Shown one piece after another: positions 4,424-41,192 of a stretch of DNA of 45,824 bases. The DNA is from Planctomycetaceae bacterium. Lineage in GTDB: Bacteria; Planctomycetota; Phycisphaerae; Phycisphaerales; SM1A02. How positions within the stretch are numbered: the stretch's first letter is position 1; every line of letters starts with the position of its first letter. The position numbers and the translations under genes are program-made. The notes below the pieces were generated by a model. It saw only the letters and a list, made by a program, of their open reading frames with translations, was not told the DNA's origin and made no database searches. Location: positions 1-45,824 of the forward strand of contig CANKBX010000003.1 of the NCBI GenBank assembly GCA_947480055.1. Direction: 5' to 3'.

Positions 4424-4462
4424 GCGAGCATGGTAAGCATTACGGCGGTTACCTTTAAGCGT

Positions 4463-5299: not shown

Positions 5300-5327
5300 A
5301 CCCGAGCAAGAGCGTTACCATGATCGC

Positions 5328-6242: not shown

Positions 6243-6356
6243 TGAATGAGTTGGTGGTGATGCGCGTGGCGATTGAATTGTTGAGTGCGGTCGAATTTTT
6301 TATTTAAGCAATGTGTCAAGTTGTGTGAAACGCTCGTGTTGTTTGAGCGACAAAAT

Positions 6357-10832: not shown

Positions 10833-10914
10833 GAATCGCCGATAGAAACAACGAGTTACGATCACGATTGCAAATGCATCCAAACATGTCGTGCTGGTGC
10901 ACGAAAGCCTTGAA

Positions 10915-13617: not shown

Positions 13618-13621
<4 letters not shown>
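12095..13621 (-). CDS. Wzx-like polysaccharide flippase (MATE/PST superfamily)
   Basis: Polytopic hydrophobic protein; RGSMLNSAQWLINKALTAGAMFIIASFLTPAEWGVGIGSLAIFQFLCLFLPL; polysaccharide-gene neighbourhood. Confidence 0.88.
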
Positions 13622-15830
<2,209 letters not shown>

Positions 15831-15863
15831 TTAACCTTCCAATCATTGGGTACCTTTATTGAA

Positions 15864-16820
15864 ATGACTTCCACATCCGCACAACCTTTCCGCGGCAAAC
15901 GCATTGTTGTAACGGGCGGCGTTGGATTTCTTGGACGAGTTCTTGTGGACAAATTAAAGGCGCGCGGAGCGGATGAGATTTTGATTCCTTTGCAAAAGGA
16001 CTTTGATTTAACCACCGAGGCCGCCGTGGTTCGCATGTACGACACCATGAAGCCGGACGTTGTGTTTCACTTAGCAGCAGAAGTTGGTGGTATTGGCGCC
16101 AACATGAAGAATCCAGGGCGTTACTTCTACGCCAACATGGCCATGGCTCTGCATTTGATTGAGCACGCGCGCCAACGCAACTTGGGCAAGTTTGTTCAGG
16201 TTGGAACAATTTGCGCGTATCCCAAGTTCACACCGGTACCGTTTCAAGAAAGCGAGCTTTGGAACGGCTATCCAGAAGAAACCAATGCGCCGTACGGCAT
16301 TGCCAAGAAGGCGGCAATGGTGATGTTGGATGCGTATCAACGGCAATATGGTTTGAAGTCAACGTATGTGTTGCCCGTGAATTTGTACGGACCGGGCGAC
16401 AATTTTAATTTGGATACGTCGCATGTCATTCCAGCGCTCGTTCGTAAATGCGTTGAGGCCGTGACCACAAAGACCGACCACATTGAATGTTGGGGCACGG
16501 GTTCCGCAAGCCGCGAGTTTTTATATGTGGACGATGCCGCCGAGGGTTTGATTCGTGCCGCTGAAGTGCTAGACACTCCCGAGCCGATCAACTTGGGTAC
16601 TGGCATGGAAATCACCATCAAAAATTTGGTCACGCTTATCGCTAAATTGAGCGGATTTACAGGCGAAATTCGCTGGAATTCGTCCAAGCCAGACGGGCAA
16701 CCGCGGCGCTGCTTAAATGTAGAACGTGCTGCGAAGTTGCTTGGCTGGCGCGCGCAAGTTGGATTTGAAGATGGATTAAAGCGCACGATTGAGTGGTATC
16801 GGGGGCAACACAATGCTTGA
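15864..16820 (+). CDS. fcl: GDP-L-fucose synthase
   Basis: [21 protein letters not shown]..., [46 protein letters not shown]; divergent to gmd. ATG 15864 preferred over TTG 15846. Confidence 0.94.
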
Positions 16821-16887
16821 TTGCTTTTGCGCTATCTCAACGAGCGTTTCAGCAAGAGCGCAAAAAATAATTGAAGGGGTCCGCTGA

Positions 16888-18789: not shown

Positions 18790-18924
18790 AATTTTTAGGC
18801 AAATTAAGATTCGCCGAGTCATTCATAAAGTCTTCATATGTCCAAACCATGATTCGCCAAGCGCAGTATCTTTGAAAGTTATTCAACGATTTCTAGAAAT
18901 GCGCCGACAAATCCAATCAACTCC

Positions 18925-21051: not shown

Positions 21052-22157
21052 CACAACAACACATTTTGGTAGACATCATCGCCGGCGCACGTCCAAATTT
21101 CATGAAGATTGCGCCGATTATTCGTGCGGTCAAGGCAAGTCAAGAAAAAGGCGGTCGACTCAAGTATCGACTTGTTCACACCGGCCAACATTACGACGCG
21201 AAGATGTCCGGCGACTTTTTTACGCAACTTGGAATTCCAGCGCCAGATGTGAATTTGGAGGTTGGTTCAGGAACGCAGGCTGAACAAACTGCCGTGATTA
21301 TGACGCGCTATGAGAAGTTGCTTCTAGATGCCCGCAGTAATTTATGTCTGGTTGTTGGCGATGTGACTTCCACCATGGCTTGCGCCATTGCCGCGCAAAA
21401 GTTGTGCGTTCCCGTGGCCCACGTGGAGGGCGGCATTCGTTCAGGTGACTGGACCATGCCCGAAGAAATCAATCGCATGGTGACGGACTCAATCACAAAT
21501 TATTTTTTCACCACCAGCGATGTGGCGAACAATAATTTAAAAAAGGCCGGTGTGCCAAGCGAAAGAATTTTCTTTGTGGGCAACACCATGATCGATACTT
21601 TGCTTGCCAACATGGATCGATTGCAGCCGCCAGCATTCTGGAAAGACATGAATCTTTCAGCCGGCCAATATTTTGTGCTGACTCTGCACCGACCCAATAA
21701 TGTTGACGGCGAAAACAAGTTGGCCCAAATGTTGACCGCGGTGGGAACCGGCGCAAAGGGATCACCAGTGATTTTCCCGGTTCATCCACGCACCGCAAAA
21801 ACACTCAAGGCCATCGAGGGCCTTCCTGCCAACCTGCATTTTGTGGATCCGCAACCGTATCTTGAGTTTAATTATTTAGTGAAACATGCCAAAGCTGTCA
21901 TCACGGATTCTGGCGGAATTACCGAGGAAACCACGGTAATGGGAGTGCCTTGCATGACGTTGCGTGACTCCACCGAACGGCCAGAAACCGTCACTGTTGG
22001 CACCAACGAACTCCTTGGAACGAATCCTTCAGCGCTTGCTCCCGCTTTTGAGAAATTGTTTGCGGGTAAATGGAAGCGCGGTGCGATTCCAGAGATGTGG
22101 GATGGCAAGACGGGGCCAAGAATTGTGAAGCATTTGGAGCAACTTTTGGCAAAATGA
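21048..22157 (+). CDS. wecB: UDP-N-acetylglucosamine 2-epimerase (non-hydrolysing)
   Basis: IIAGARPNFMKIAPIIRAVK ... LVHTGQHYDAKMSGDFFTQLGIPAPD ... VITDSGGITEETTVMGVPCMTLRDSTERPET; ATGA overlap with upstream gene. Confidence 0.95.
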   Translation: MTQQHILVDIIAGARPNFMKIAPIIRAVKASQEKGGRLKYRLVHTGQHYDAKMSGDFFTQLGIPAPDVNLEVGSGTQAEQTAVIMTRYEKLLLDARSNLCLVVGDVTSTMACAIAAQKLCVPVAHVEGGIRSGDWTMPEEINRMVTDSITNYFFTTSDVANNNLKKAGVPSERIFFVGNTMIDTLLANMDRLQPPAFWKDMNLSAGQYFVLTLHRPNNVDGENKLAQMLTAVGTGAKGSPVIFPVHPRTAKTLKAIEGLPANLHFVDPQPYLEFNYLVKHAKAVITDSGGITEETTVMGVPCMTLRDSTERPETVTVGTNELLGTNPSALAPAFEKLFAGKWKRGAIPEMWDGKTGPRIVKHLEQLLAK

Positions 22158-22181
22158 AATCACGAGTTTCCTCCCAACGGT

Positions 22182-23834
22182 TTGTGCTTGTCTGTTACCT
22201 TTTGCATCGTGCAACGCTTTCTTCAATATTGGCACACGCTGCGGCACTTGAAACCAGTTCAGTTCTACGGTCGGCTTTGGTTTCGTTTGCATACGCCCAA
22301 AATTGATTTGCGCGCGGCGCCATCAGTAAGATCCACAACTAGTGCATGGGTTGAACCCGTTGCCAAACATCAGACACAGTTTGGCGCAATGACATTTCGG
22401 TTTCTCAATCAAGATCAAACGCTCAGTGGCGCTGACGCCTGGAACGATACGCGCTGTGACAAACTATGGCTTTACAACCTGCATTATTTTGACGACTTGT
22501 GTGCTGCGGGTGCCAGCGATCGCATTGTGTGGCACAAACAATTGATCGAGAAATGGATCGCGGAAAATCCGCCAGCCATCGGCAATGGCTGGGAGCCTTA
22601 CCCAACATCGCTGCGCATTGTGAATTGGATCAAGTGGTCGTTGGGTGGAAATCAATTAACGAACGGCGCGCTTCAAAGCTTGGCGATTCAATCGCGCTGG
22701 CTTTCCAAGCGTGTCGAGCACCATTTGCTCGCAAATCACCTGTTTGTAAATGCCAAGGCGCTTGTGTTTGCCGGAATGTTTTTTCAGGGTTTAGAAGCCG
22801 ATTCTTGGCTGAATCAAGGTCTTCGAATTCTGGCGCGCGAAATTCCTGAACAAGTTTTGGCGGATGGGGGTCATTTTGAATTAAGCCCCATGTATCACGC
22901 CATCATTTTGGAGGACATTTTGGATTTGATCAACGCGTGTCAAAGTTGGCCGAGCGCGTTGGCTTTGCAACAGGCAAGCGCACTTCGCGCCGCCGCACAG
23001 CGAATGTTGACCTGGCTTGAAATCATGAGCCACCCCGATGGCGATGTGTCATTTTTTAATGACGCTGCATTTGGTATCGCGCCTCGTTTGATTGATGTAT
23101 CCCAATACGCAAATCGTTTGGGAGTGCGTGTGCAACAATTTGATTCAAGCAAAGAAATTCATCATCTACAACAATCGGGCTATATACGCGCACAAAAAGG
23201 CGCGGCGGTTCTGCTTGTGGATGTTGGGCGCATTGGTCCGGATTATCAACCAGGCCATGCTCACGCCGACACTCTGTCATTCGAATTTTCTTTGGGCGAA
23301 CAACGAATTTTTGTGAATAGTGGAACTTCCACATATAAATCCGGCGCACAGAGATCGCTTGAGCGTTCAACTGCGGCGCACAACACCATTGAGATCAATC
23401 ATGCGAATTCAAGTGAGGTGTGGGGGGGCTTTCGCGTTGCGCGTCGAGCGCAGCCATTCGGCATTGAATGTGTTGAAGCAGAAACCGCGCTCGCAATTAC
23501 CGCTTCGCATGCCGGCTATCAACGACTTGTCGGGCGGCCCACTCATCAAAGGATTTGGAAGCTATCTCGCAGATCATTGACGGTCACTGATCAGATTAAG
23601 GGAGAATTGAGTGGAGCCATAGCGCGTTTGTATTTGCACCCATCAGTAAAAGTGCTTGAAAATAATATGCTTACGCTGGCAAATGGACAACACTTACGCT
23701 ATTCCACCAAGGGGGCAATCGTGACTATTGTGGATTCGGTTTGGCACCCAGAGTTTGGAAAAAATGTGAGCAACACATGTTTCGTGCTCACACTCAGCGG
23801 ATCAGAATCCGTGTTTGAATTACAGTGGTCTTGA
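22182..23834 (+). CDS. heparinase II/III-family protein
   Basis: N-terminal QYWHTLRHLKPVQFYGRLWFRL, LWLYNLHYFDDL, GHAHADTLSFEFSLGEQRIFVNSGTSTYKSGAQRSLERSTAAHNTIEI. Start uncertain (TTG 22182 or GTG 22209). Confidence 0.92.
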   Translation: MCLSVTFCIVQRFLQYWHTLRHLKPVQFYGRLWFRLHTPKIDLRAAPSVRSTTSAWVEPVAKHQTQFGAMTFRFLNQDQTLSGADAWNDTRCDKLWLYNLHYFDDLCAAGASDRIVWHKQLIEKWIAENPPAIGNGWEPYPTSLRIVNWIKWSLGGNQLTNGALQSLAIQSRWLSKRVEHHLLANHLFVNAKALVFAGMFFQGLEADSWLNQGLRILAREIPEQVLADGGHFELSPMYHAIILEDILDLINACQSWPSALALQQASALRAAAQRMLTWLEIMSHPDGDVSFFNDAAFGIAPRLIDVSQYANRLGVRVQQFDSSKEIHHLQQSGYIRAQKGAAVLLVDVGRIGPDYQPGHAHADTLSFEFSLGEQRIFVNSGTSTYKSGAQRSLERSTAAHNTIEINHANSSEVWGGFRVARRAQPFGIECVEAETALAITASHAGYQRLVGRPTHQRIWKLSRRSLTVTDQIKGELSGAIARLYLHPSVKVLENNMLTLANGQHLRYSTKGAIVTIVDSVWHPEFGKNVSNTCFVLTLSGSESVFELQWS

Positions 23835-23835
23835 A

Positions 23836-26265
23836 ATGCACATTCTTTTTCTCACCGATAATTTTCCGCCCGAAGTCAACGCTCCTGCGTCGCGCACATT
23901 TGAACACTGCCGCGAATGGGTGAGGCAAGGCGAACAAGTGACGGTGATCACTGGTGCGCCAAACTTCCCCACGGGAAAAGTTTTTGAGGGCTATAAGAAC
24001 AAACTTTGGCAAACAGAAACCATAGATGGCATTCGCGTGATTCGAGTGTGGACATATATCACCGCCAATGAGGGATTTTTAAGACGCATTTTGGATTACA
24101 TCAGTTTCATGTTGAGCGCGGTAGTGGCGGCAGTATTTGTAAGCAAGGTTGATGTTGTCATTGGCACTTCACCACAGTTTTTTACGGCGTGCGGTGCTTG
24201 GATTGTGAGCGTGTACAAACGGCGCCCGTTTGTCTTTGAGTTGCGTGACTTGTGGCCAGAATCAATTCGTGTGGTGGGAGCCATGAAAGATTCTTTTGCG
24301 TTGGATATGTTGGAAAAGCTGGAACTCTTTTTGTATCGACGCGCCGACAGAATTATTTCTGTAACACACGCGTTTAAAAGAAACCTGATCAAGCGTGGCA
24401 TCAATGGCGACAAAATTAAAGTGGTCACCAACGGCGTTGATAGTTCGCGATTTATGCCGCAAAAACGCGACGAACAATTAGTGCAGCAACTTGGATTAGA
24501 GGGCAAATTTGTTGGCGGATATATCGGAACCCATGGACTTGCGCACGCGCTTGAAACCCTGCTTGATGCCGCGAAGATGGCGCAAGATCAAGGCGACGAT
24601 TCACTTGCCTTTGTGTTTCTGGGCGACGGCGCAAGGAAAGCGGAGCTGAAAAATCGTACCGCGGAATTGGCATTGAAGAATGTTCACTTCGTTGATTCCG
24701 TGGCTAAGGATCTAGTGCCGCGCTACTGGGCGCTGCTTGATGTCGCCATTATTCATCTTCGACGCACGCCATTGTTTGAGACAGTGATTCCGTCCAAACT
24801 GTTCGAGTGCATGGGTATGGGTATTCCGGTATTGCATGGAGTGGCGGGCGAATCCGCTGAAATTGTGGAGAGCGAAGGAGTTGGAATTCCATTTGTTCCA
24901 GAAGATGCGGTCGCGTTGCTGGCATCCATGCGCAGGTTGCAACAGGACAAGCAGCTCTACAACACATTCCGTGACAATGGATTGCTTGCCGCTAAAAAAT
25001 ATGATCGGAACATGTTGGCGCTGAGCATGCTTAAAGCGCTGCGAAGAATTCGGGTGCTGATGTTAAATCAAGCTTTCTGGCCAGACGTGGTCGCCACGGC
25101 GCAGCACGCCGACGATTTAGCGCGATACTTGCGCGAAAATGGCGACGATGTAACTGTGGTTGCAAGCCGAGCTATTTATGGCGAACGTGGAGCAACTCTG
25201 CCCAAACGTGAAACACACAAGGGAATCCAAATTTATCGCGTGGGGTTGCAACTCTTCGGCAAGCGCGGCATCACGCCACGTGTGTTTGATTTCACATTAT
25301 TTTATGTGGCAGCCTTGTGGCGTTGCATGATGTTGCCGCGCCACGATGTTGTGATTTGCTTCACAACGCCACCATTTATTGCCCTAGTCGGCGTGTTGTT
25401 GAAATGGATCAAGGGCACTCATTTGGTCTATTGGACTATGGATTTATATCCCGAGGTTGCTGGCGCCGCGGGCGTGATGAAATCACGGGGCATGCTCTGG
25501 AATATTTTTCGTTGGATAGATCGAATTTGTTTGCGTCAAAGCGATCGAGTGGTTGCGCTTGGTGACTATATGAAACAAAAAGTAATCGAGAAGGGCGCCA
25601 TCCCCAATCGTGTCAGCGCTATTTCTGTTTGGAGCGGTGCCGAGAAATTCGCAAAGCGAAATAGGGAAGAAAATCCGCTGCGTAAGGAGTGGAATATTGG
25701 CGACCGCTTCACCGTTTTATATGTTGGAAATTTTGGTCTTGGGCACGACATGGACGCCATTGCGGGCGCGGTTGAACGATTGAAAGATGACGACTCTATT
25801 CGTTGGCTTTTTATTGGCGATGGCAAAGCGAAACTAAATTTAGAGCGGCGTATTGAGGAGTGCGGAGCCAAGAATATTTTTGTCAGCGGCTATCAAACGC
25901 GCGAGCAGCTTGCGGATGTGTTGGATGTTGGTGATACGCACTTGGTCACATTGCTTCCAGGTTGGGAAGGTTTGATTTTGCCGAGTAAGTTCTTCAGTGT
26001 TCTTGCGGCTGGCAAGCCGGTATTGTGGGTTGGTCCCGAGAAAAGCGAATGTGTATCCATATTGAAGGAGAACCAATGCGGCTATCAAAGCGAGCCAAGT
26101 GATGGCGGTGCTTTGGCGCGCGAGATTCAATATCTTGCCGCACACAGAAACGAAGCGGCGGAGATGGGCCGTCGTGGTCAGGTTGCTTATGAAAATAAAT
26201 ACGAATCTCACCACGCCTGCAAGGCTTGGCAAAATGTTTTGCATGAAATTGTTCGACCTCTGTGA
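23836..26265 (+). CDS. tandem glycosyltransferase (GT4-GT4 fusion, WbuB-like halves)
   Basis: First half MHILFLTDNFPPEVNAPASRTFEHCREWVRQGEQVTVITGAPNFP; second half begins about 25045 (RIRVLMLNQAFWPDVVATAQHADDLARYLRENGDDVTVVAS). Both halves carry GT4-like C-terminal motifs. Confidence 0.9.
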   Translation: MHILFLTDNFPPEVNAPASRTFEHCREWVRQGEQVTVITGAPNFPTGKVFEGYKNKLWQTETIDGIRVIRVWTYITANEGFLRRILDYISFMLSAVVAAVFVSKVDVVIGTSPQFFTACGAWIVSVYKRRPFVFELRDLWPESIRVVGAMKDSFALDMLEKLELFLYRRADRIISVTHAFKRNLIKRGINGDKIKVVTNGVDSSRFMPQKRDEQLVQQLGLEGKFVGGYIGTHGLAHALETLLDAAKMAQDQGDDSLAFVFLGDGARKAELKNRTAELALKNVHFVDSVAKDLVPRYWALLDVAIIHLRRTPLFETVIPSKLFECMGMGIPVLHGVAGESAEIVESEGVGIPFVPEDAVALLASMRRLQQDKQLYNTFRDNGLLAAKKYDRNMLALSMLKALRRIRVLMLNQAFWPDVVATAQHADDLARYLRENGDDVTVVASRAIYGERGATLPKRETHKGIQIYRVGLQLFGKRGITPRVFDFTLFYVAALWRCMMLPRHDVVICFTTPPFIALVGVLLKWIKGTHLVYWTMDLYPEVAGAAGVMKSRGMLWNIFRWIDRICLRQSDRVVALGDYMKQKVIEKGAIPNRVSAISVWSGAEKFAKRNREENPLRKEWNIGDRFTVLYVGNFGLGHDMDAIAGAVERLKDDDSIRWLFIGDGKAKLNLERRIEECGAKNIFVSGYQTREQLADVLDVGDTHLVTLLPGWEGLILPSKFFSVLAAGKPVLWVGPEKSECVSILKENQCGYQSEPSDGGALAREIQYLAAHRNEAAEMGRRGQVAYENKYESHHACKAWQNVLHEIVRPL

Positions 26266-26346
26266 TCGATCCCAGGCGGATAATTTTTGTGATTTATATT
26301 TCAATGCCAGTGGGGGCACGGGTTGCGGTCATGCAGGTCATTCGAA

Positions 26347-27267
26347 TTAAGAATTTGCTGAAATGAGTTCCGCAATCTTAAGCCTGATCTGCCAGAAATA
26401 GATCGCCTTCATGCGCGCAAAGGCGTAGCCCGTGCGGCCATCCAAGAAGCCAAGTTTGTAAACGAAGATGTATAGAAAATACGCGGGCGCTAGCCACCAG
26501 CGCGTTAAGTTGTTGTACTTGCGTCGCTGGATAGCGGTGAAATGTTCTCCACCGATTGCCGAATCTCCACCGGCGTTGCGCAGTTTCATATATCGCCGCG
26601 CTTCCCATGACGAATACTCATTGTGTTTGGCAATGTACGAGTGCAGGCCCTTGAAATCATTGTGGTCAATCCTGGCTTTCAACTCGCCAACGCTTCCTTG
26701 CAGCACGGGATGTTCATGTACTTCCATGTCAAGCGAACTCCATGCATCCTCGTCAATGCGCTCGTACAAACCCGCGCCAACTTTGAACAGCGGCAACTTC
26801 AACTGCGGCACGCCGTGCTTGAGTTCTTGACCCAGAAAATAATTCGAGTAGTTCACCCAGAAACCCGTATGTTGCGTGCTGGCAATGGCGCTCTCAAGTT
26901 CATTTACAAACGCTTCGGTTACATATTCATCCGCATCCAAGAAAAAAACCCACGGCGTTTCCATTTGGTGATTCAGCAAATACCAATTGCGTTTTTTTGG
27001 ATAGTGGCCATTCCACCTGAACGGAACAAACTCACAACCAAACTTCTCGGCAATGGCTTGTGTTTGATCCGTGCTTCCGGAATCAATGATGACAATCTTG
27101 GCAAAGCGCGCGAGTTGCTGCAGACACTTGGGCAGGTTTCGCTCCTCATTTTTCACCGGAATGACCACGGTGATGGGCAATTTCGCTGAGTTGATAGGCA
27201 CGCTCATATCGTATCGGCATAATTTCCATCCCTTGTTGAAGTTCGTGGCTTCTATAACATTCGCCAT
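26347..27267 (-). CDS. glycosyltransferase family 2 (WaaE/KdtX-like)
   Basis: LPITVVIPVKNEERNLPKCLQQL ... IVIIDSGSTDQTQ ... WVFFLDADEYVTEAF; alternative start at 27207. Confidence 0.9.
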   Translation of the reverse strand: MANVIEATNFNKGWKLCRYDMSVPINSAKLPITVVIPVKNEERNLPKCLQQLARFAKIVIIDSGSTDQTQAIAEKFGCEFVPFRWNGHYPKKRNWYLLNHQMETPWVFFLDADEYVTEAFVNELESAIASTQHTGFWVNYSNYFLGQELKHGVPQLKLPLFKVGAGLYERIDEDAWSSLDMEVHEHPVLQGSVGELKARIDHNDFKGLHSYIAKHNEYSSWEARRYMKLRNAGGDSAIGGEHFTAIQRRKYNNLTRWWLAPAYFLYIFVYKLGFLDGRTGYAFARMKAIYFWQIRLKIAELISANS

Positions 27268-28330: not shown

Positions 28331-30013
28331 ATGCCCGCCGTACACATTCACAACACGCTTACTGGTGAACTTGCCGAAATAAATCCCATCGCGGGCGCGG
28401 CTGGTCCCGTCACTTTTTATACGTGCGGGCCAACGGTGTACGACGACGCGCACATTGGCAACTTTCGCTCATTTCTAAACGCCGATATTTTGCGCCGCAC
28501 CATTGAACTCACTGGCACGCCCGTTCGCCACGTCATGAACATTACCGATGTTGGCCACATGACAGACGACACCAACGCCGACGGCGCCGGCGAGGACAAG
28601 ATGGCCGTGGCGGGTCGCCGTCTTTTGGAAGCCAAAAAATCTGGAAAAATTCACGCCGACGTCGCCATTGATGCCAACGATCCAATGGCTATCGCGGATT
28701 TTTACGCCAACCGATTTCTAGAAGACGCGCGCCTGTTGGGTCTGAAAGTTGCCATTGAAGCGCAAAGCGATCCATCGCTTATGCCGCGGCCAACTCAGTG
28801 GATTTCACAAATGCTTGACATGATCAAGCAACTCATTGAACGCGGGCACGCATATGTTGCCAGCGACGGCGCGGTGTATTTCAATGTGAAAAGTTTCGCT
28901 GACTACGGCAAACTTTCCGGAAACACGCTTGAGAATTTGCGCGAGGGCGAGGGCGGGCGCATTAGTGCGCAGCATCAGGCCGCCAAGAAAAATCCTGGCG
29001 ATTTTATGTTGTGGAAGCCGGATCCGCATCACGTGTTGAAATGGGATTCGCCCTACGGCGCGGGATATCCCGGCTGGCATTTGGAATGCTCCGCCATGGC
29101 CGCGGGTTTGCTTGGTGCGGAAATAGATATTCACTCCGGCGGCGAGGACAATATTTTTCCGCACCACGAATGTGAGATTGCGCAAAGTCGTTGCGCGCAC
29201 AACAAGCCAAGTTTTGCGCGCTTGTGGTTCCACACGCGCCACTTGATTGTTGAGGGCGAGAAAATGTCCAAGAGCAAAGGCAATTTTTTTACCGCGCGCG
29301 ACTTGTTCGCCAAGGGCGTTACACCCGCCGCGCTTCGCCTAGAAATTACGCGCACGCATTACCGCACCAATGCCAACTTCACTATGCAAGGTTTGGCAGA
29401 TTGCCAGCGCATGATTGATCGATGGAGTCGCGCCGCGGAGGCGTTGCAAGCGAAAGTTGCGGCGGGCACGCCACGTTTGGTGGGAGGCGACGCACACAAT
29501 TCCGCCAGCGCCAAAAACGCAAACGTAAACGCGAACGCGAACGCAAACGCAAACGCAAACGCAAACACAAGCGCAAACGTAAATGCAAACGCAAATATAA
29601 ATACAAATGCATGCGCAAACATCAATCACAACGCGCCGGCCGGCCCATTTGAAACCGCATTGCCGCGCTTCACCCAAGCGTTGTGTGAAGACCTAAACAT
29701 GGCGCGCGCAATTGCGGCGCTGAACGAAGCAGTCGCCGTTGAAGACAACTCCGCGTGCGCGCATCGCGAACTTGCGGCGCTGCACAAAATGGATTCCGTT
29801 CTTGGCGTGCTAGAGCGCAACACTCAAGTTGCAACCAGTGGCGACAGCGACTTCGAAGCCAAAGTGAACGCGTTGATTGAAGTCCGCGCCTCCGCGCGCC
29901 GCAACAAAGATTTTGCCGCAAGCGACCGCGCTCGTGATGAACTTGTGTCGTTAGGCGTGCAAATTAAAGATGGCGCCACGGGAACCACTTGGACGCGCGC
30001 GGTTCGTGCTTGA
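28331..30013 (+). CDS. cysS: cysteinyl-tRNA synthetase with low-complexity insertion
   Basis: CGPTVYDDAHIGNFRSF (HIGH-like), GWHLECSAMA, GGEDNIFPHHECEIAQS, GEKMSKSKGNFF. Confidence 0.97.
   Translation: MPAVHIHNTLTGELAEINPIAGAAGPVTFYTCGPTVYDDAHIGNFRSFLNADILRRTIELTGTPVRHVMNITDVGHMTDDTNADGAGEDKMAVAGRRLLEAKKSGKIHADVAIDANDPMAIADFYANRFLEDARLLGLKVAIEAQSDPSLMPRPTQWISQMLDMIKQLIERGHAYVASDGAVYFNVKSFADYGKLSGNTLENLREGEGGRISAQHQAAKKNPGDFMLWKPDPHHVLKWDSPYGAGYPGWHLECSAMAAGLLGAEIDIHSGGEDNIFPHHECEIAQSRCAHNKPSFARLWFHTRHLIVEGEKMSKSKGNFFTARDLFAKGVTPAALRLEITRTHYRTNANFTMQGLADCQRMIDRWSRAAEALQAKVAAGTPRLVGGDAHNSASAKNANVNANANANANANANTSANVNANANINTNACANINHNAPAGPFETALPRFTQALCEDLNMARAIAALNEAVAVEDNSACAHRELAALHKMDSVLGVLERNTQVATSGDSDFEAKVNALIEVRASARRNKDFAASDRARDELVSLGVQIKDGATGTTWTRAVRA
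29514..29625 (+). repeat. degenerate (GCAAAC)n hexanucleotide repeat inside cysS, encoding Asn-Ala repeats
   Basis: aacgcaaacgtaaacgcgaacgcgaacgcaaacgcaaacgcaaacgcaaac..., encoding NANVNANANANANANANTSANVNANANINTNACANIN. Confidence 0.95.
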
Positions 30014-30611: not shown

Positions 30612-30650
30612 GTGTGTCCTCATATTTTGTAAAGATGATTGATAAACAAA

Positions 30651-30807
30651 AAGCAATTTTAGCAACCTCGCAAACGCCACAAACTCCCGCGTCACAGAAA
30701 GGGTGGCACCAAAAGCAAATTTATCACCCGCGCAAACGCTACAAACTCCCGCGTCGCAGAAAGGGTGGCACCACAAGCGAGTTTAGCACCCGCGCAAGCC
30801 CTGCTTG
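30651..30807. repeat. tandem ~62-bp repeat, about 2.4 copies (A units)
   Basis: Copies of aagcaa(a/t)ttta..cacc.cgcaaacgc.acaaactcccgcgtc(a/g)cagaaagggtggcacca at about 30651, 30713 and a partial at about 30775. Confidence 0.9.
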
Positions 30808-30821
30808 CGTGGGGTGCGTTG

Positions 30822-31045
30822 TCTGAGCGACTGGTGCCACCCTTTCTGCAAAGCGTTTCACTCTCTTGCAAAGTGTGCGTTATCTGAGCGACTGGTGCCA
30901 CCCTTTCTGCAAAGCGTTTCACTCTCTTGCAAAGTGTGCGTTATCTGAGCGACTGGCGCCACCCTTTCTGCAAAGTGTGCGTTGTCTGAGCGACTGGTGC
31001 CATCCTTTCTGCAAAGCGTTTCACTCTCTTGCAAAGTGAGCGTTA
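30822..31045. repeat. tandem 61-bp repeat, 4 copies (61, 61, 41, 61 bp) (B units)
   Basis: Unit tctgagcgactggtgccaccctttctgcaaagcgtttcactctcttgcaaagtgtgcgtta at 30822, 30883, 30944 (20-bp deletion) and 30985. Core tggtgccaccctttctg is the reverse complement of the A-unit core. Confidence 0.97.
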
Positions 31046-31073
31046 TTCCCGCGCCCGCCGCTATCCTTGCATC

Positions 31074-31703
31074 ATGTCGACCACTCCCCGACTTCCGGTC
31101 ATTGGACTTGTTGGAGGTATCGGTAGCGGAAAAAGCGAAGTAGCCCGAATGCTTGCGGAAGTTGGTTGCGTTGTATGCGACTCGGATTCTCTGGTGCGAA
31201 AAACCCTGCGCGAGCCAGCCATCAAAGAAGAACTTGTACGCTGGTGGGGCCCAACCATTCTTGACGCTCACGGAGACATCAATCGCAAAGCCGTTGCGCA
31301 CTTGGTATTCGCTTCAACAGAAGATCGCCACCGCCTTGAGCAACTGATTCACCCACGAGTGGAAGCGCTGCGTCACAAGATATTTGCCGCGGCTCCATCG
31401 ACAACACCGGCGTTGATTATTGACGCGCCGCTTCTGCTTGAAGCCGGCCTTGGACCAAAGTGCGATCGCATTTGGTTCATTGACACTCCGCTCGCAACCC
31501 GTCTTGAACGCGTGCAGCGAACCCGCGGTTGGAGCGCGCATGATTTGCAGCGCCGAGAATCCGCCCAGTGGCCGCTTGACCGAAAGCGCTTGGCGGCTAA
31601 CGATATTTTGCAGAATGAAGGAGATCCCGACTCGTTGCGTCGACAGGTATTGCAGATTCTGCGAGATCTCCCGCCAATTACTGAAATGAAATCAAATTTT
31701 TAG
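31074..31703 (+). CDS. coaE: dephospho-CoA kinase
   Basis: VIGLVGGIGSGKSEVARMLAEVGCVVCDSDSL (P-loop), IDAPLLLEAGLGPKCDRIWFIDTP; ATG at 31074. Confidence 0.95.
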   Translation: MSTTPRLPVIGLVGGIGSGKSEVARMLAEVGCVVCDSDSLVRKTLREPAIKEELVRWWGPTILDAHGDINRKAVAHLVFASTEDRHRLEQLIHPRVEALRHKIFAAAPSTTPALIIDAPLLLEAGLGPKCDRIWFIDTPLATRLERVQRTRGWSAHDLQRRESAQWPLDRKRLAANDILQNEGDPDSLRRQVLQILRDLPPITEMKSNF

Positions 31704-31941
31704 GCAACAGGCAGTCATTTGGTTTGGCATGTATTTCATAGCCAAATTAAATATGCGCCCATGTACACTTTCAGAATGAACTCCACGGTTGCGAATTGCC
31801 ACCTATCCATACGCGTAGTTGCCCGTGATTTGCGCCAACAGTTCATTGCAAAACGTGGACAGAAAGATCTATCGCCTCGCCAGGGCCAGCTTTCATGTCG
31901 TTCAATTATTTCCACTCAATTTGGTCGCTTGGAAAACTGAA

Positions 31942-33285
31942 ATGCTCGAAGTATTGACTGTCGGGATTTTTATAGCTGCCTGCGTAATGGCGCTTCTTAG
32001 TCCGGCGTGGGGGCTTGCCCTTGTCTCAGTCATGTTCACCTTGGAGCAGGCCCTGCAAGCCACTTCGTCCATGTTCTTGAACCAGTTGTCACTCGCAAAT
32101 ATTTGCGTGGCGTTGGCGGTTGGTATCGGATCTATACGAGCAATTTCAAAGCAGCACAGGCCTTTTCTTGGTTATTTTACATTTGAGTGGATCGTCACTA
32201 TTGTTATTTTTACTTGGTCGTGCATCTCTTTGATTTGGACCCCTTCATTCAAATCAGGAAGCGAACTTATTTCTGCGGGAATTCCTTACTTTATTTTATA
32301 TGTGATCGTCAGCCCTTTTTTAATTGACGGCATTGATTCGCTTAATAATTTTTTCCGCGTATTTCTAATTTTGGGATCAGTAGTAATTATTCTCATTTTG
32401 GTTAATCCAACATTTACAGTCACATCTGGACGCTTGGGTATTAACTTGGGAGCGACCCTAAGAACAAATCCGCTAGCCATGGGCGAACTTGGAGGCAGCG
32501 TTCTGCTTGTCTCCGCCCTGTTTCGAATTGGCGTCAAGTCAATCTTTATTAACATCATTCGCGTCGTAGGATTTTTCTGCGGCACCGCAATTGCGCTTCA
32601 GTCTGGTTCGCGCGGCCAAATTCTCTTCGCCGTATTGTTGGCATTCATTTTCTACCCAGTATCGGTGAGAGTTAAAAATCTATTTTCATTCCTCGCCACA
32701 TCTCTTGGTTTGATCGTTTTGCTGCCAATTACTTTATGGGTAGCTCAAGTGGTTCTTGGAGATGTGGGATTGCGACGTTGGGATGCCGACGTGATCGCGG
32801 GCGGAACGGAAGTTCGAATCGAAAATATTATGGATTTGTTGGGCGGCTTCGTCACGAATCCCGCCGCCTGGCTTGTGGGGCTGGGATTTAACGCATTTAC
32901 GTCCATCAGTACCGCTGGATCCGAACCATATTCACACGTGATGTTCATTGATATTTTTGCGGAGCTTGGTATTCCACTGTTTATTTTATTCTCCATCAGC
33001 ATGTACACCACTGCCCGTAATTCAATCTGGCTCTTTCGCCGATTTAGAGATGAACCGACACAAAGGGCAACCTTGGCCGTGCTTTTCTCTTTTCTCGCCT
33101 ATCAAATTTTGCTGATGAATAAACAAGGATACCTTTGGGCCGCGGGATCTTTCTTTGTTGTAGTTCTCATACTGTCGCGCTTGAAGTTTCGCACTGAAGA
33201 ATCAGATTTTGAATTAGAAATGAGCGATCCCGATTTGAACACCTCTACCGAGAATCAAGAAACTCATCTTGTAAAGCTGAGCTAA
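31942..33285 (+). CDS. O-antigen ligase/polymerase-like (Wzy/WaaL-type) membrane protein
   Basis: Polytopic hydrophobic protein with O-antigen-polymerase-like features (SGSRGQILFAVLLAFIFYPV; large loop; NPAAWLVGLGFNAFTS). ATG 31942 preferred over 31819. Confidence 0.8.
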   Translation: MLEVLTVGIFIAACVMALLSPAWGLALVSVMFTLEQALQATSSMFLNQLSLANICVALAVGIGSIRAISKQHRPFLGYFTFEWIVTIVIFTWSCISLIWTPSFKSGSELISAGIPYFILYVIVSPFLIDGIDSLNNFFRVFLILGSVVIILILVNPTFTVTSGRLGINLGATLRTNPLAMGELGGSVLLVSALFRIGVKSIFINIIRVVGFFCGTAIALQSGSRGQILFAVLLAFIFYPVSVRVKNLFSFLATSLGLIVLLPITLWVAQVVLGDVGLRRWDADVIAGGTEVRIENIMDLLGGFVTNPAAWLVGLGFNAFTSISTAGSEPYSHVMFIDIFAELGIPLFILFSISMYTTARNSIWLFRRFRDEPTQRATLAVLFSFLAYQILLMNKQGYLWAAGSFFVVVLILSRLKFRTEESDFELEMSDPDLNTSTENQETHLVKLS

Positions 33286-33290
33286 ATCCA

Positions 33291-35231
33291 ATGTGCGGAA
33301 TTTTTGGAATCATTTCTGCTTCTGGTCTTCGCGAAGGAGATCCGCAACTTCTGAGGGATCTTGCGGCCGCGTTGGTGCACCGCGGTCCAGATGGAGAGGG
33401 GTTCCTTGAAACCAAACAGGTCGCTTTGGGAATGCGACGGCTCGCCATTATCGATCTTGCGGGCGGTTGGCAGCCGCTTTGGAATGAAGATGAATCAATC
33501 GCATTGGTTGCCAACGGCGAGGTGTACAACTTCATTGAACTTCGCCGTGATTTAGAGGCGCGCGGTCACCGCTTTAAAACCGGAAGTGACTGCGAAACAA
33601 TAATCCATCTCTACGAGGAATACGGGTCGGATTGCGTTCAACATCTTCGAGGCATGTTTGCGTTCGCCCTGTTGGACCGAACGAAAGGCCGCGTGTTGAT
33701 TGTTCGCGACCGCATTGGCGAGAAACCACTTTTCTTGGCGTGGAACCAAAACCGCTTGGTCTTTGCAAGTGAAATGCGCGGTCTCATTGGTTCTGGCGCG
33801 GTGCCATTTGAAATTGATCCGGGTGGAGTCAATCTTTATATGCATTATGGATTTGTGCCTGAACCAAATACCGCGGTGCGGGGAGTGCGCAAGTTGTCCG
33901 CCGGGCACTTGATTGAAATTGATCTGAATCCGTGGAAGGTGAGCGAAAGATGTTGGTGGCGCATGGAAGATGCGCCGCCAATCGACGCTGATCCAGGCGA
34001 AACTATTCGGGCGGTGTTGGAGGAAATTTCCTCGCTGGTTGTGCGCTCGGATGTTCCAGTTGGAATCGCGCTTTCGGGAGGCGTTGATTCAAGCCTGATC
34101 GCCGTTATGGCCAAGGCGAAATTGCAGAACAAGCTCACCGCATTTTCGATTGGCTATGAGGGCGGCGCTTGGCAAGATGAGACAGGTCTCGCCAAGGAAT
34201 TCGCGGACAAGGTTGGCATTCAGATGCATGTTGGTCAGATCAACACCGAAGATGTCGTGAATGGCTTCGCGGATGTTTGCCTGAAAAAAGACGATCCAAT
34301 TGCGGATCTAACTGGATCAAGTTATTACGCGGTGATGAAGATGGCCCGCGAACATGGCGTGCCGGTGATGCTCATGGGTCATGGTGGTGATGAATTATTC
34401 TGGGGATATAAATGGCAGAAAGATGCCGCTATTCGCGCGGAGCGTCGCGAAAAACTTTTGCGCGGCGATGTTGGTCTAGCAAGTTATCTTCGCATTTCCA
34501 AACCACCAATCAGTTGGACCGCGGCAATGACGTGGCTTGAGCATGGAGGCGGTTTGTTGAGTGGTTTGCAAGATTGGCGGCAAGACAAATCATGGCCCCG
34601 CCATCAACTTCCGTGTTGGGATCCACATCACCAATGGCGAACTGCCGACGCGCTTGCGCCCGTTGTTCTTGATTGTTGGGAGGAGGCGCGGCAAACCGAT
34701 CCGACCGCAATTTTTAGAGGCGAGCAGTTTTTTCCGCGTACGGATATTTCCCTGACAAAGCTGGTGAGTGAAACTTATATGACCGTCAACGGCATCGCTC
34801 AGGGAGATCGCTTAAGCATGGCCACAAGCGTGGAGTGCAGACTTCCTTTAGTTGACTATCGTTTGATCGAAACAGTGATTGGTTTGCGCAAGGCTCGACC
34901 TGATCATCATCTTCCGCCAAAGGCTTGGCTTCATGCGGCGTCCAAGGACATTGTTCCTTCCTTTGTATTTGAAAGACGCAAGCGTGGATTCGCACCTCCA
35001 TGGCGTCGTTGGCATCAAGCTATTTTTGACCGCCATATTTCGGATCTTCGCAACGGGGCTCTTGTGCAAGCGGGCATCGTTCGTCGCGGCTCATTTGACG
35101 CAATTCGCAGTATTCATGACTGGTGTGGACGACCCACTCCACTTCTTATTCCAATGTTGGTTCTTGAGTGTTGGGCGCAAGGCATGACCCGCGCGGCAGC
35201 CAACGCACCGCGACCGTATCGAGCGCATTGA
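33291..35231 (+). CDS. asnB: asparagine synthase (glutamine-hydrolysing), copy 2
   Basis: MCGIFGIISASG, ALVHRGPDGEGF, VPVGIALSGGVDSSLIAVMA. Confidence 0.95.
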   Translation: MCGIFGIISASGLREGDPQLLRDLAAALVHRGPDGEGFLETKQVALGMRRLAIIDLAGGWQPLWNEDESIALVANGEVYNFIELRRDLEARGHRFKTGSDCETIIHLYEEYGSDCVQHLRGMFAFALLDRTKGRVLIVRDRIGEKPLFLAWNQNRLVFASEMRGLIGSGAVPFEIDPGGVNLYMHYGFVPEPNTAVRGVRKLSAGHLIEIDLNPWKVSERCWWRMEDAPPIDADPGETIRAVLEEISSLVVRSDVPVGIALSGGVDSSLIAVMAKAKLQNKLTAFSIGYEGGAWQDETGLAKEFADKVGIQMHVGQINTEDVVNGFADVCLKKDDPIADLTGSSYYAVMKMAREHGVPVMLMGHGGDELFWGYKWQKDAAIRAERREKLLRGDVGLASYLRISKPPISWTAAMTWLEHGGGLLSGLQDWRQDKSWPRHQLPCWDPHHQWRTADALAPVVLDCWEEARQTDPTAIFRGEQFFPRTDISLTKLVSETYMTVNGIAQGDRLSMATSVECRLPLVDYRLIETVIGLRKARPDHHLPPKAWLHAASKDIVPSFVFERRKRGFAPPWRRWHQAIFDRHISDLRNGALVQAGIVRRGSFDAIRSIHDWCGRPTPLLIPMLVLECWAQGMTRAAANAPRPYRAH

Positions 35232-35319
35232 AATTCATTCGGGTCCAATGAATTGTGCACGGAGGATTGTTACACTTTTGTCGCGGCATGGCGATCTTTT
35301 CCATGGCGCCAACCACCAG

Positions 35320-36534
35320 ATGGCCGCCGACGTTCAATCAAAGAAATCCTCCACAAAGCGTCCACGCGTCGCCGTGGTTTATCATTTTTTTGCGCATTAT
35401 CGCGAGCCCATTGTTGAAAGACTCGCACGCAGCGAGGTCGCTGATTTTGTTTTTTGTGGCGACGACCATGATTATGAAAGCACAATCAAAAAAGCGAATT
35501 TTAGTTCAAGGGTAGATTTTCGTTTTTGCCGCACGCACAAAATTTTTCGCTCGATCATGTGGCAGAGCGGAATTATCCGCGTTGCGTTATCGCGCGAATT
35601 TGATCAGATTATATTTTTAGGAAACGCATTTTGGATCGCAACATGGATCGCGGCCATCATGGCGCGTCTCACTGGAAAACGTGTTCTGTATTGGAGCCAC
35701 GGATTTTTACAAACGCCCCAGGGAATGAAGGGGTTGCTTCGAAGATCTTTTTTCGCACTTGCGCACGCGCATTTGTTTTATGGACGATACGCAAAACAAG
35801 AGGCGATCACGCTTGGCTGGAATCCTTCGCGATTGCACGTGGTTGGCAATAGCTTGAATCTAGACGCACAAACACGCGAAAGAAATTTAGTCAAGGATGG
35901 GGAGCTTGCCGCGCTTCGCCAACGCTTGTTCAAAGATCCCTCGCTTCCGATCGCATTTTGTTCCTGTCGCTTGCAGCCATCTAAGCGTTTAGATCTGCTT
36001 GTGAGCGCTCTTGCCAAACTTGCGCAACAAGGCACGCGCGCCAATTTATTAATTGTGGGTGATGGATCAGCGCGCGCCGATTTGGAGCGCTTGGCGAAAG
36101 AATCTGGAATCGACGCCCACTTCACCGGCGCTTGCTACGACGACGCGCAACTTGCCCGATATATCAGCGCTTCGGATGTAACGGTGTCGCCAGGATTTGT
36201 TGGCTTGACGGCGATACACAGCATGGCGTTTGGCGTGCCCGTAATCACACACGGCACCATGGCCAAACAAGCTCCTGAAGTGGAGGCCATTATTCCAGGA
36301 GTCACGGGCGATCTTTTTGCTCTTGGAAATGTCGATGATCTGGCGAGATGCATGAAGTCATGGTTGAGCCCACAGCGAGATCGCGAGCGCACGCGCCAGG
36401 CATGCATTCAGTTGGTCGAGCGTTTCTGGTCTCCAGCGTTTCAACAAATGATCATTGAGCATGCTGTCTTGGGGTACCCTGCGGATGACTTGTTGTTTCT
36501 CAGGCAGCCAAAGGCAAGGAGCGAACCCACATGA
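35320..36534 (+). CDS. glycosyltransferase, paralogue of the 10915-12102 gene
   Basis: RVAVVYHFFAHYREPIVERLARSEVADFVFCGDDHD ... GKRVLYWSHGFLQTPQGMKGLLRRSFFALAHAHLFYGRYAKQ. Start at ATG 35320 or 35248. Confidence 0.88.
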   Translation: MAADVQSKKSSTKRPRVAVVYHFFAHYREPIVERLARSEVADFVFCGDDHDYESTIKKANFSSRVDFRFCRTHKIFRSIMWQSGIIRVALSREFDQIIFLGNAFWIATWIAAIMARLTGKRVLYWSHGFLQTPQGMKGLLRRSFFALAHAHLFYGRYAKQEAITLGWNPSRLHVVGNSLNLDAQTRERNLVKDGELAALRQRLFKDPSLPIAFCSCRLQPSKRLDLLVSALAKLAQQGTRANLLIVGDGSARADLERLAKESGIDAHFTGACYDDAQLARYISASDVTVSPGFVGLTAIHSMAFGVPVITHGTMAKQAPEVEAIIPGVTGDLFALGNVDDLARCMKSWLSPQRDRERTRQACIQLVERFWSPAFQQMIIEHAVLGYPADDLLFLRQPKARSEPT

Positions 36535-37097
36535 TTCGAAAATTGCTTGGACGCGGCAAATTCTTCTTATTTATGAGGGGCCGAGTTATGTCATGGAGAA
36601 GGTTTCGCCATGGACTCAAGCATGTGCATCCAACTTTTTACATGGGTCCAAATTGCATTGTGACAACTGATTTAGTCGCTGGCGCATATTCCTTCATGAA
36701 TAACGACTGCATGATCCAGGCTCGCGTTGTGCTGGGTCGATATGTTTTGCTGGGACCACGGGTGTCGGTTGTCGGCGGTGATCATCGGCCAGGCTTGCCC
36801 GGCGTTCCAAACATTTTCAGCGGACGACCAGAAATTTTGGAGACCGTGATTGAAGATGATGCATGGATTGGGCACGGCGCAATATTGATGCAGGGAGTGC
36901 GGATCGGTCGTGGAGCAATCGTTGCCTCGGGCGCGGTGGTCACACGCGATGTTCCTCCGTATGAAATTCACGGCGGCGTACCAGCAAAAAAAATCAGTGA
37001 AAGATTCACAGACCCCGCCGCGCGCGCCTTGCATGACAGCATGTTGGCAGGTCCCTTATATAAAGGCCAACTCGCCAAGCCGCAGCTTGATGATTAA
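36531..37097 (+). CDS. hexapeptide-repeat acyltransferase (WbbJ/LbetaH family)
   Basis: VSVVGGDHRPGLPG..., DDAWIGHGAILMQGVRIGRGAIVASGAVVTRDVPPYEIHGGVPAKKI; ATGA overlap with upstream GT. Confidence 0.92.
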   Translation: MIRKLLGRGKFFLFMRGRVMSWRRFRHGLKHVHPTFYMGPNCIVTTDLVAGAYSFMNNDCMIQARVVLGRYVLLGPRVSVVGGDHRPGLPGVPNIFSGRPEILETVIEDDAWIGHGAILMQGVRIGRGAIVASGAVVTRDVPPYEIHGGVPAKKISERFTDPAARALHDSMLAGPLYKGQLAKPQLDD

Positions 37098-37154
37098 ACT
37101 TTATGCAACCCAGTTCAACTTTATTTGTTCGAGATTGTCTCGCCGGTTATTTCA

Positions 37155-37970
37155 ATGACAGCCAATAAAAAAGAAGTATTTGATTTTTGGAATAAGGCAT
37201 CTTGCGGCGAGGATTTATATCTTCACAACACGCAGGCTCAGGGCTATGTCGAACAGGCTCGCATGCGTTACCAACTTGAGCCATATATTTTTGATTTTGC
37301 GAAGTTTTCCGAAAGTAAAGGCAAGCGCGTGCTTGAAATTGGAGTTGGCTTGGGTGCCGACCATCAGCAATTTGCGCAAGCGGGTGCGGAACTCTTCGGT
37401 GTGGACTTGACCGCCCGCGCGGTGGAGCACACGCAAAAAAGATTGAAGTGCTTTGGTTTACAGTCCACAATTGCTATCGATGACGCGGAAAATTTATCGT
37501 TTCCAAACGACACATTCGATATTGTCTATTCATGGGGCGTGCTTCATCACAGCCCTAATACACCAAAAGCAATCTCTGAAGTATGGCGCGTTCTTAAGCC
37601 AGGCGCAGTGGCGAAGATAATGATCTATTCAAAGTGGAGTGTGATTGGCGCCATGCTTTGGACTCGCTACGCGCTTTTGCAAGGCAAGCCTTGGTTGTCG
37701 CTTACAGAAATTTATGATCGCTATCTTGAAAGTCCCGGCACAAAGGCCTACACAATTTCACAGGTCAAGCAGCTCATGAGTTCATTTGAAAACGTGCGGA
37801 TTTCTACCGTGTTAACCCACGGTGATCTTCTAAGCTCACAAGCTGGACAACGCCATGCGGGACTATTGCTTCGCATGGCTAGAGCGATTTGGCCGCGATG
37901 GCTCATTCAAACATTATTTCCAACAGCGGGGCTTTTCATGTTGATTGAAGGCTCAAAGCCCGCCCAATAA
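37155..37970 (+). CDS. class I SAM-dependent methyltransferase
   Basis: KRVLEIGVGLGADHQQFAQAGAELFGVDLTARAVEHTQKRL; DTFDIVYSWGVLHHSPNTPKAISEVWRVLKPGA. Confidence 0.93.
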   Translation: MTANKKEVFDFWNKASCGEDLYLHNTQAQGYVEQARMRYQLEPYIFDFAKFSESKGKRVLEIGVGLGADHQQFAQAGAELFGVDLTARAVEHTQKRLKCFGLQSTIAIDDAENLSFPNDTFDIVYSWGVLHHSPNTPKAISEVWRVLKPGAVAKIMIYSKWSVIGAMLWTRYALLQGKPWLSLTEIYDRYLESPGTKAYTISQVKQLMSSFENVRISTVLTHGDLLSSQAGQRHAGLLLRMARAIWPRWLIQTLFPTAGLFMLIEGSKPAQ

Positions 37971-37995
37971 TCACTCATTCAATTTCAAGGAATAA

Positions 37996-38148
37996 CGCCG
38001 AGAATCCGCTCAGTGGCCGCTTGACCGAAAGCGTTCCGCAGCGCATGATGTACTGCGTAACGAAGGTGATTCAGCTTCGTTGCAGAGACAGGTACTACAG
38101 GTTCTGCGGGATCTCCCGCCGGCGACCTCAACTGAATCAAAGCTCTAA
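37996..38148 (+). pseudogene. truncated, diverged duplicate of the coaE 3' end (last 50 codons plus stop)
   Basis: Translates to RRESAQWPLDRKRSAAHDVLRNEGDSASLQRQVLQVLRDLPPATSTESKL*, aligning without gaps to the coaE C-terminus RRESAQWPLDRKRLAANDILQNEGDPDSLRRQVLQILRDLPPITEMKSNF* (31551-31703). Confidence 0.93.
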
Positions 38149-38372
38149 ACATTCGGCGGGCGTCCGCTGCTTGGTTTAAAGTTCCCGTTCACAACTGCGT
38201 TCATGGCAAAAGCCATTACGCAAGATATGGATAGACCGTCATTACACAGCCCCCACAATCACAGCCACAACAACAGCATCAACAACGAGATCACCAAGGC
38301 AAGCGTCGACGACGACGAAAGGGTGGCGGAGGTGGTGGTGGCGGACACGGCGGTCACGGTGGTCAACCGCAC

Positions 38373-39749
38373 ATGCCTGTCATGATCTTGGCGCCAGGCA
38401 GTTTGCCAACGGATGATTTGCTCAATCAAGAAATTCAGGCTTTGGAAACTGAACTGACCGGCAAGAAAGCCGTCAAGCGTGAAGACCTTGATGTGGCCGG
38501 CATGCACAGACTTGGCGCCGAAGAAATGATCAAACTTGCGCGCGCTGAAGGCTTGGAAGAACAAGCCGGCATGCCCAAGCAAAAGTTGGCGTTTGAAATT
38601 CTCAAGGCCCGCGCCAACAAGCACGGCTTGATGATCGCCACCGGCACGCTTGAAATTATGAACGAAGGCTTTGGTTTCTTGCGTAGCGCGGAGTACAGCT
38701 ACATGGACAGCCCCGATGACATTTATGTCAGCGCGCTGCACATTCGCAAACTTAATTTGCGCAAGGGTCAAGTGTTGACCGGTTTGGTGCGCGCGCCGAA
38801 AGACACGGAAGTGTTTTTCACCATGCTGCACATAGATCTTGTGAATGGAAAACCACTCACGGCACTGCGGGATTTGCCTACTTTTGAGGCCCTCACGCCG
38901 CTGCATCCAGACAAACGAATTCATTTGGAAATGGTGGGACAGCCCACCAAACTAGAGACGCGAATTATTGACATGGTCACGCCGCTTGGCTTTGGCCAAC
39001 GCGGTTTAATTGTTGCGCCGCCACGCACCGGCAAGACCGTGATTCTGCAACAAATCACCAACGCAATTTGCGTGAACCATCCAGACGTTCACGTGATCGT
39101 GTTGTTGATTGACGAGCGCCCCGAGGAAGTCACGGATTTTCGCCGCAACACTCCGCCGCGCGTTGAAGTGATCGCCAGCACATTTGACGAGGAAGTTGCG
39201 CGCCACATTCAAGTCGCCGAAATGGTGATGGAGAAGGCGCGTCGCATGGTTGAGTTCGGCCAGCACGTTGTGATTTTGCTTGACAGCATCACGCGGCTCG
39301 CGCGTGGTTACAACAACGGAATGTCTGGCTCTGGAAAAATCGGCTCGGGCGGCGTGGACAACGCCGCGTTGATCAAGCCCAAGAAATTCTTTGGCTCCGC
39401 GCGCAACATTGAGCACGGTGGTTCGCTCACTATTCTTGCGACGGCGCTTGTGGACACGGGTAGCCGCGCCGACGAAGTCATCTTTGAGGAGTTCAAGGGA
39501 ACCGGCAACGCCGAACTTCACTTGGATCGCAAGTTGGTTGAGAAGCGCATTTATCCAGCGATTGATGTTGGCGCCAGCGGCACGCGTCGCGAAGAATTAT
39601 TGCTTGACCCCAAGGAGCACGAGTTGATTGTGCGCCTGCGCAAAGTGGTGAGCGACATGAACGTGGTTGAAGCCATGGAGCTTCTCAAGAGCCGCTTGGG
39701 CAAGACCAAAAGCAATGCGGAGTTCTTGATGACCATGAACATGGGTTGA
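38373..39749 (+). CDS. rho: transcription termination factor Rho (true N-terminus may lie upstream, see findings)
   Basis: [81 protein letters not shown]. Confidence 0.96.
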
Positions 39750-39823
39750 GCCCACGCACCCGCCGCCCCGCGGACTGCGTATAGAGAAAAGCCTTATTTC
39801 GCAAGGATATCCAAGGAAATTCA

Positions 39824-41120: not shown

Positions 41121-41192
41121 GCCCCCGTAGCTCAGTGGTAGAGCACACCCTTGGTAAGGGTGAGGTCGAGGGTTCAATCCCCTTCGGTGGCT
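41121..41192 (+). tRNA. tRNA-Thr (anticodon GGT)
   Basis: GCCCCCGTAGCTCAGTGGTAGAGCACACCCTTGGTAAGGGTGAGGTCGAGGGTTCAATCCCCTTCGGTGGCT; anticodon loop TTGGTAA; cloverleaf folds with one C-T acceptor mismatch. Confidence 0.93.

Follow-up and report, generated by a model that had tools for sequence, protein, structure and literature searches.

In the window, the whole stretch of 45,824 nucleotides that we analysed, the native 3' end of the dephospho-CoA kinase gene coaE has been displaced to a position in front of rho, and the comparison with related genomes suggests that this displaced end very probably still acts as the start signal for its essential neighbour rho. Our best explanation of the whole, which we consider probable, is that the fragment has been retained because it is the rho promoter, and that the 38-bp identity between the fragment and the intact coaE represents a boundary of homologous recombination. 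The duplication of the coaE end, the empty sites in related genomes, the contrast between a foreign and a native tail, the pattern of codon constraint and the movement of the motif with rho can all be read directly from the sequence. The window comes from contig G000:C3 of a 2.2-Mb metagenome-assembled genome (MAG) that is 82% complete.

Apparently hybrid coaE and its displaced native end

The coaE, cassette, promoter, leader and rho features described here all lie on the forward strand. The intact coaE gene (31074-31703; Pfam CoaE, 8.9e-41) is apparently a hybrid, which on comparison with the sister genome G002 divides into a native-type head (31074-31550), a core repeat (31551-31588) and a foreign-type tail (31589-31703). 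Its nearest named database records are 86-93% identical and include MAGs labelled Planctomycetia and Phycisphaerales, one of them from Lake Baikal. The core occurs a second time at 37996-38033. A preliminary description of this DNA had reported that the two 38-bp copies differ by one base, and this was borne out at both positions: 37 of the 38 bases are equal, and the sole mismatch is a C/T difference at position 15 of 38. No third copy was found in the window at up to three mismatches, and none is expected from shuffled sequences.

The same description had located the repeat inside coaE and had seen the identity drop sharply on both sides. The location holds for the left copy, which lies within the intact gene, but the right copy opens a displaced native coaE 3' end (37996-38148) that has neither a start codon nor a head, is located upstream of rho and matches the coaE end of the sister species. 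This displaced end is an open frame of 50 codons, RRESAQWPLDRKRSAAHDVLRNEGDSASLQRQVLQVLRDLPPATSTESKL, closed by a TAA stop at 38146-38148. As to the identity, the copies are indeed unrelated leftward of the repeat, since the right copy, a fragment, begins at that point. Rightward of the core, however, they stay alike up to 38141 (75% overall) in what is clearly coaE sequence.

The head of the intact gene shows 28 synonymous changes and 1 nonsynonymous change against G002 over 159 codons, whereas the tail attached to it shows 11 synonymous and 14 nonsynonymous changes over 38 codons. The displaced end is closest to G002, with one synonymous difference in 38 codons. Since the attached tail is about equally distant from every native tail of the group, that of the distant G014 included, it most likely arrived from another lineage along with the insert. 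Judged by these comparisons, the end that is now attached to coaE in the window is the foreign one, and the displaced end is the native one. No donor of the foreign tail was found in 181 genomes of the family, the best matches being native tails of the same genus.

In six genomes of this genus (G002, G005, G006, G009, G013 and G014) coaE and rho lie about 0.2 kb apart without any insert, and the single coaE end of these sister genomes has the sequence type of the displaced copy. The left and the right flank of the window both align to this single locus, joining at the core. All five cassette genes recur in G011 together with the displaced coaE end (95.5% identity over 7.8 kb), and the arrangement is therefore not peculiar to one assembly. 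Because the contig of G011 begins within the foreign tail (window position 31681), the left junction is known from a single assembly. At the right junction, a spacer (37971-37995) lies between the stop codon of the methyltransferase gene and the displaced fragment; it was delimited by alignment with cassette-free sites and is shared with G011. At the right joint itself (37995/37996) the alignment reveals a couple of bases in common, with some relatives only. The repeat had been put forward as a crossover site resembling an att site; the empty sites of the relatives and the foreign and native tails support a recombination boundary. The att site of a recombinase is not supported.

Predicted rho promoter within coaE codons

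The sequence in the right part of the repeat is CTTGACCGAAAGCG, and a promoter scan placed a predicted rho promoter at 38021-38049, with the -35 box TTGACC (38021-38026), a spacer of 17 nucleotides and the -10 box CATGAT (38044-38049). This sigma-70-like motif, TTGACN-N17-xATxAT, is present in 108 of the 181 family genomes. The form with a spacer one base shorter is present in 14 of the 181. Spacers other than 17 gave almost no matches; the xATxAT form of the -10 box is a weak match to TATAAT. In the copy attached to coaE, TTGACC is kept (31576-31581), but the aligned -10 position reads AACGAT (31599-31604), so the predicted promoter has been lost there. This foreign-tailed copy lacks the -10 box and also most of the pairing of the hairpin described below.

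The Leu codon in the repeat was CTT in all 30 relatives that were read first (30/30), in genes whose third-position G+C reaches 86%. Synonymous constraint was measured by shuffling synonymous codons within each of 90 coaE genes. In this set the -35 codons (Leu, then Asp) were the most synonymously constrained of coaE, with z values of 23 and 27, and the -10 codons xAT xAT were also constrained (z of 14 and 8), whereas the RRESAQWP codons in the left part of the repeat showed no synonymous constraint (z ~0). The preliminary description had allowed that codon conservation could contribute to the identity of the copies, and equal conservation of the 38-bp segment among unrelated coaE genes had been proposed as a mark of purifying selection. 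Codon conservation does not account for the whole repeat. Its right half, CTTGACCGAAAG, shows strong non-coding constraint, since it contains the predicted -35 box of rho, but the RRESAQWP codons are unconstrained, and the probability that codons agree by chance over the first 12 residues of the repeat is ~3e-5.

Outside the genus, the Leu site is CTT in 54 of 70 genes, as compared with 15% of other Leu codons (p = 5e-29). The native coaE tails also contain fewer synonymous changes than the heads (e.g., 2/38 versus 49/159, p = 0.0007), in comparisons that share one reference. From the sequences we infer that the motif functions as a promoter.

The motif stays with rho

The conserved part of rho, which encodes the transcription termination factor Rho, extends over 38373-39749 (Pfam Rho_RNA_bind and ATP-synt_ab) and is 99% identical to G002 and G005. 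The true start of rho is probably upstream of 38373. The frame is open back to 38235 but contains no ATG, GTG or TTG before 38373; an ATT near 38238 could be the start, and the conserved basic N-terminus of Rho, KRRRRRKG, is encoded upstream of 38373.

Nearly every genome examined has rho after coaE, as have 24 of 24 loci from other families of the order, and the motif CTT GAC/GAA ... xAT also occurs in families f4 and f6. When its place was determined at 90 loci, the motif was inside coaE at 52, across the coaE stop codon at 4 and in the coaE-rho gap at 12, while 22 had no exact form; about 8 of these 22 miss the embedded form by one or two bases in the -10 box. Thus, when coaE is without the motif, it is often located closer to rho. 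Two motifs at one locus were not seen among the 90 loci, and the comparison of embedded versus gap motif gave p = 1e-5.

In G061 (L244 1-6500, contig G061:C60) rho lies away from coaE on a different contig, preceded by a type III restriction-enzyme-like gene, and TTGACC-N17-CATCAT is found just upstream of the relocated rho, at 4263. In the window, TTGACC-N17-CATGAT is located on the displaced fragment near rho and not on the copy attached to coaE. In each case the motif goes with rho and not with coaE, which is strong comparative evidence for the predicted promoter. We also considered whether the gap promoters of rho in other genera are relics of duplicated coaE ends, and found no support for this, as the likeness is confined to the two promoter boxes. 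Among open-licence papers we found none that describes a rho promoter within coaE or names coaE as a site of integration.

Structure of the rho leader

After the -10 box, the rho leader is predicted to begin with a hairpin of 9 pairs (38057-38083) that shows covariation at third codon positions. One pair formed by third codon positions appears as C-G, A-U, G-C and U-A across this genus and several related genera, and in 19 sequences 91% of the cells pair, as compared with 22-61% in slid versions of the hairpin. The RNA of the leader (38056-38240) folds better than shuffled sequences (z = -3.96), and Rfam gave no match in 31000-39800. The hairpin is suggestive only, because the genera were chosen for a visible fold, and other genera are without it. 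With somewhat less than even confidence, we propose that in most Phycisphaerales the last ~50 codons of coaE could be a dual-coded control region of rho, composed of the promoter, the covarying 5' hairpin and possibly a regulatory structured leader. This would tie coaE and rho together, and inserts between them would need either the segment to be duplicated or a promoter in the gap.

The polysaccharide cassette and the history of the locus

Five polysaccharide genes separate coaE and rho in the window, so that the segment with a function for both genes occurs in two copies. The first cassette gene (31945-33285) encodes a membrane protein resembling an O-antigen polymerase/ligase; it has no Pfam match, its name is deduced, and it is 61% identical to its counterparts in the polysaccharide (EPS) clusters of genus g41. 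It is followed by a gene of the asparagine synthase/glutamine amidotransferase family (33291-35231; Pfam Asn_synthase, 5.1e-56; 76-78% to g41), a group 1 glycosyltransferase gene identified by Pfam (35248-36534; ~70%), a hexapeptide-repeat acyltransferase gene (36531-37097; Pfam Hexapep; 76-85%) and a class I methyltransferase gene (37155-37970, alternative start TTG at 37125; Pfam Methyltransf_11; 63-70%).

In genus g41 (G070) the EPS cluster is contiguous and lies upstream of cysS-coaE-rho. Its order is polymerase, asparagine synthase 2, flippase, glycosyltransferase, acyltransferase, second glycosyltransferase, asparagine synthase 1, methyltransferase, dehydrogenase and epimerase, followed by further genes. 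The five cassette genes between coaE and rho keep the order and orientation of g41, and the cassette proteins are 55-85% identical to those of g41, while the polymerase of the same-genus genomes is only 30-43% identical. The window also has an upstream EPS cluster (9678-27267) without close copies of the five cassette genes, and this cluster and the cassette together make one full EPS set as in g41, each gene once, in two blocks (9678-27267 and 31945-37970) around mscS-cysS-coaE. The gene content fits the uptake of a set of EPS genes of the g41 type, perhaps in the form of a second block that was trimmed later.

Some further features were observed around cysS. The cysS-coaE interval (30646-31068) contains repeat families of 62-107 nt (TGGTGCCACCCTTTCTGCAAAGCG and its reverse complement), which also occur in G002, G005 and G006 in differing copy numbers. 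Within cysS, an in-frame low-complexity insert of Asn-Ala repeats (29500-29631) corresponds to an alignment gap in close relatives. In G014 (L067, G014:C6:50000-66000, ~4063-8371) cysS and coaE are separated by about 4.3 kb of other sequence, and this junction therefore also accepts inserts.

In the explanation that we favour, the rho promoter of these Phycisphaerales would be located inside the coaE 3' end and written in coaE codons (CTT GAC ... xAT xAT). Homologous recombination in the shared core would have fused the native head of coaE with a foreign tail bringing the polysaccharide genes, and one copy of the coaE end would complete the reading frame with this foreign tail. The right-hand joint may be illegitimate, or it may mark where a later deletion halted just upstream of the promoter, and the headless native coaE end would have been retained before rho as its promoter and 5' leader. 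The order of the recombination events is inferred from the present-day sequences.

Duplication followed by complementary loss would be another history with the same end state, compatible with the promoter reading, and we regard it as possible though rather unlikely. A second EPS-cysS-coaE block, acquired from a donor via one crossover in coaE or arisen in tandem, would have been trimmed until each gene remained once, and the right repeat with its tail could, with similarly limited likelihood, be the last trace of the second coaE. The division of the g41 set between the upstream genes and the cassette, each gene once and with the g41 order and orientation kept, is what such trimming could leave. 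However, no intermediate with two copies of cysS or coaE was seen, and the EPS loci of the genus are so variable that separate acquisition fits too. A purely internal duplication fails, given 14 amino-acid changes in the tail versus 1 in the head.

It must also be considered that a 38-bp repeat around an insert together with a restored gene end resembles the product of an integrase. A recombinase, either lost or acting in trans, would have inserted a circle made of the core, an alternative coaE tail and the cargo into the coaE 3' end, leaving the 38-bp repeats as attL and attR and restoring the gene, in the manner of phages and islands at the ends of other genes. We judge this to be improbable. 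The direct repeats are present at both boundaries (37/38), the reading frame of coaE is restored by a diverged 3' end and the site is empty in relatives, but no integrase or transposase domain and no site-specific recombinase was found in the insert (31704-37995) or the annotated flanks. The only two tyrosine recombinases of the genome (82% complete) are both matched in cassette-free relatives, the exact core is absent from 2.9 million viral contigs, no second coaE end stands beside other cargo in the other family genomes (181) among the loci listed, and the cargo is made up of ordinary EPS genes that keep their chromosomal order. An example of an integrative element in the 3' end of a gene is prophage e14 in the Escherichia coli gene icd. 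Our locus resembles it in that direct repeats flank the insert and an alternative end restores the target gene, but it differs in that there is no integrase, the EPS cargo follows chromosomal order and the core coincides with a conserved promoter box. An att site is not supported, and an integrase is unneeded. A tRNA as the insertion target was rejected as well; the only tRNAs of the window are at 41121 and 42859.

It is very unlikely that the coaE head and the contig with the foreign tail come from two species and were joined at the 38-mer as an assembly chimera. The left junction does occur in a single MAG (82% complete) with 38 bp of identity at the join, yet the right junction, the cassette and the displaced tail were found independently in G011, whose assembly contains no intact coaE elsewhere. 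Such a chimera, if real, would alter the claim of the hybrid head alone and not that of the displaced rho promoter. The reading that the 38-mer is alike only since coaE proteins conserve RRESAQWPLDRKR, a peptide that is kept in the family, is refuted by the codon-shuffle constraint and the head/tail divergence: the copies agree at all but one base even where the RRESAQWP synonymous sites are free, and the displaced copy lies outside any functional coaE.

Comparison with known systems and significance

For the T6SS effector modules and the Rhs orphan 3' ends of Vibrio cholerae, homology-facilitated illegitimate recombination that leaves displaced 3' ends has been proposed (PMC5361080). Our interpretation, in which a displaced coaE end has been kept as the rho promoter, shares with that system an anchor of homology within a conserved portion of the gene, a new 3' end and an old end orphaned downstream, and here the homologous crossover would have produced a native/foreign hybrid coaE, the left junction being found in one assembly only. 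Unlike in V. cholerae (PMC5361080), the altered gene is coaE, and the orphan has apparently been retained to provide a housekeeping gene with its promoter and not as an immunity gene or a toxin reservoir. In Chlamydia pneumoniae a sigma-70-type promoter directs an internal start inside the preceding gene lcrD (PMC3333780), and there, as here, the promoter of the downstream gene lies within the upstream coding sequence. In contrast to the lcrD case (PMC3333780), the arrangement described here is conserved in three families of one order, is accompanied by clear synonymous constraint and has been duplicated apart from its coding function.

A caution that follows from this locus is that direct repeats flanking an insert can stem from selection on an overlapping promoter and not from a recombinase. 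The displaced end also offers a testable candidate promoter and leader for rho in uncultured planctomycetes. The locus represents a natural experiment on overlapping information: in many genomes of the order, one essential gene appears to hold within its codons the promoter of a second gene, and in the window the two functions have become separated after duplication, one copy encoding protein without the predicted promoter and the other carrying the predicted promoter without the protein.
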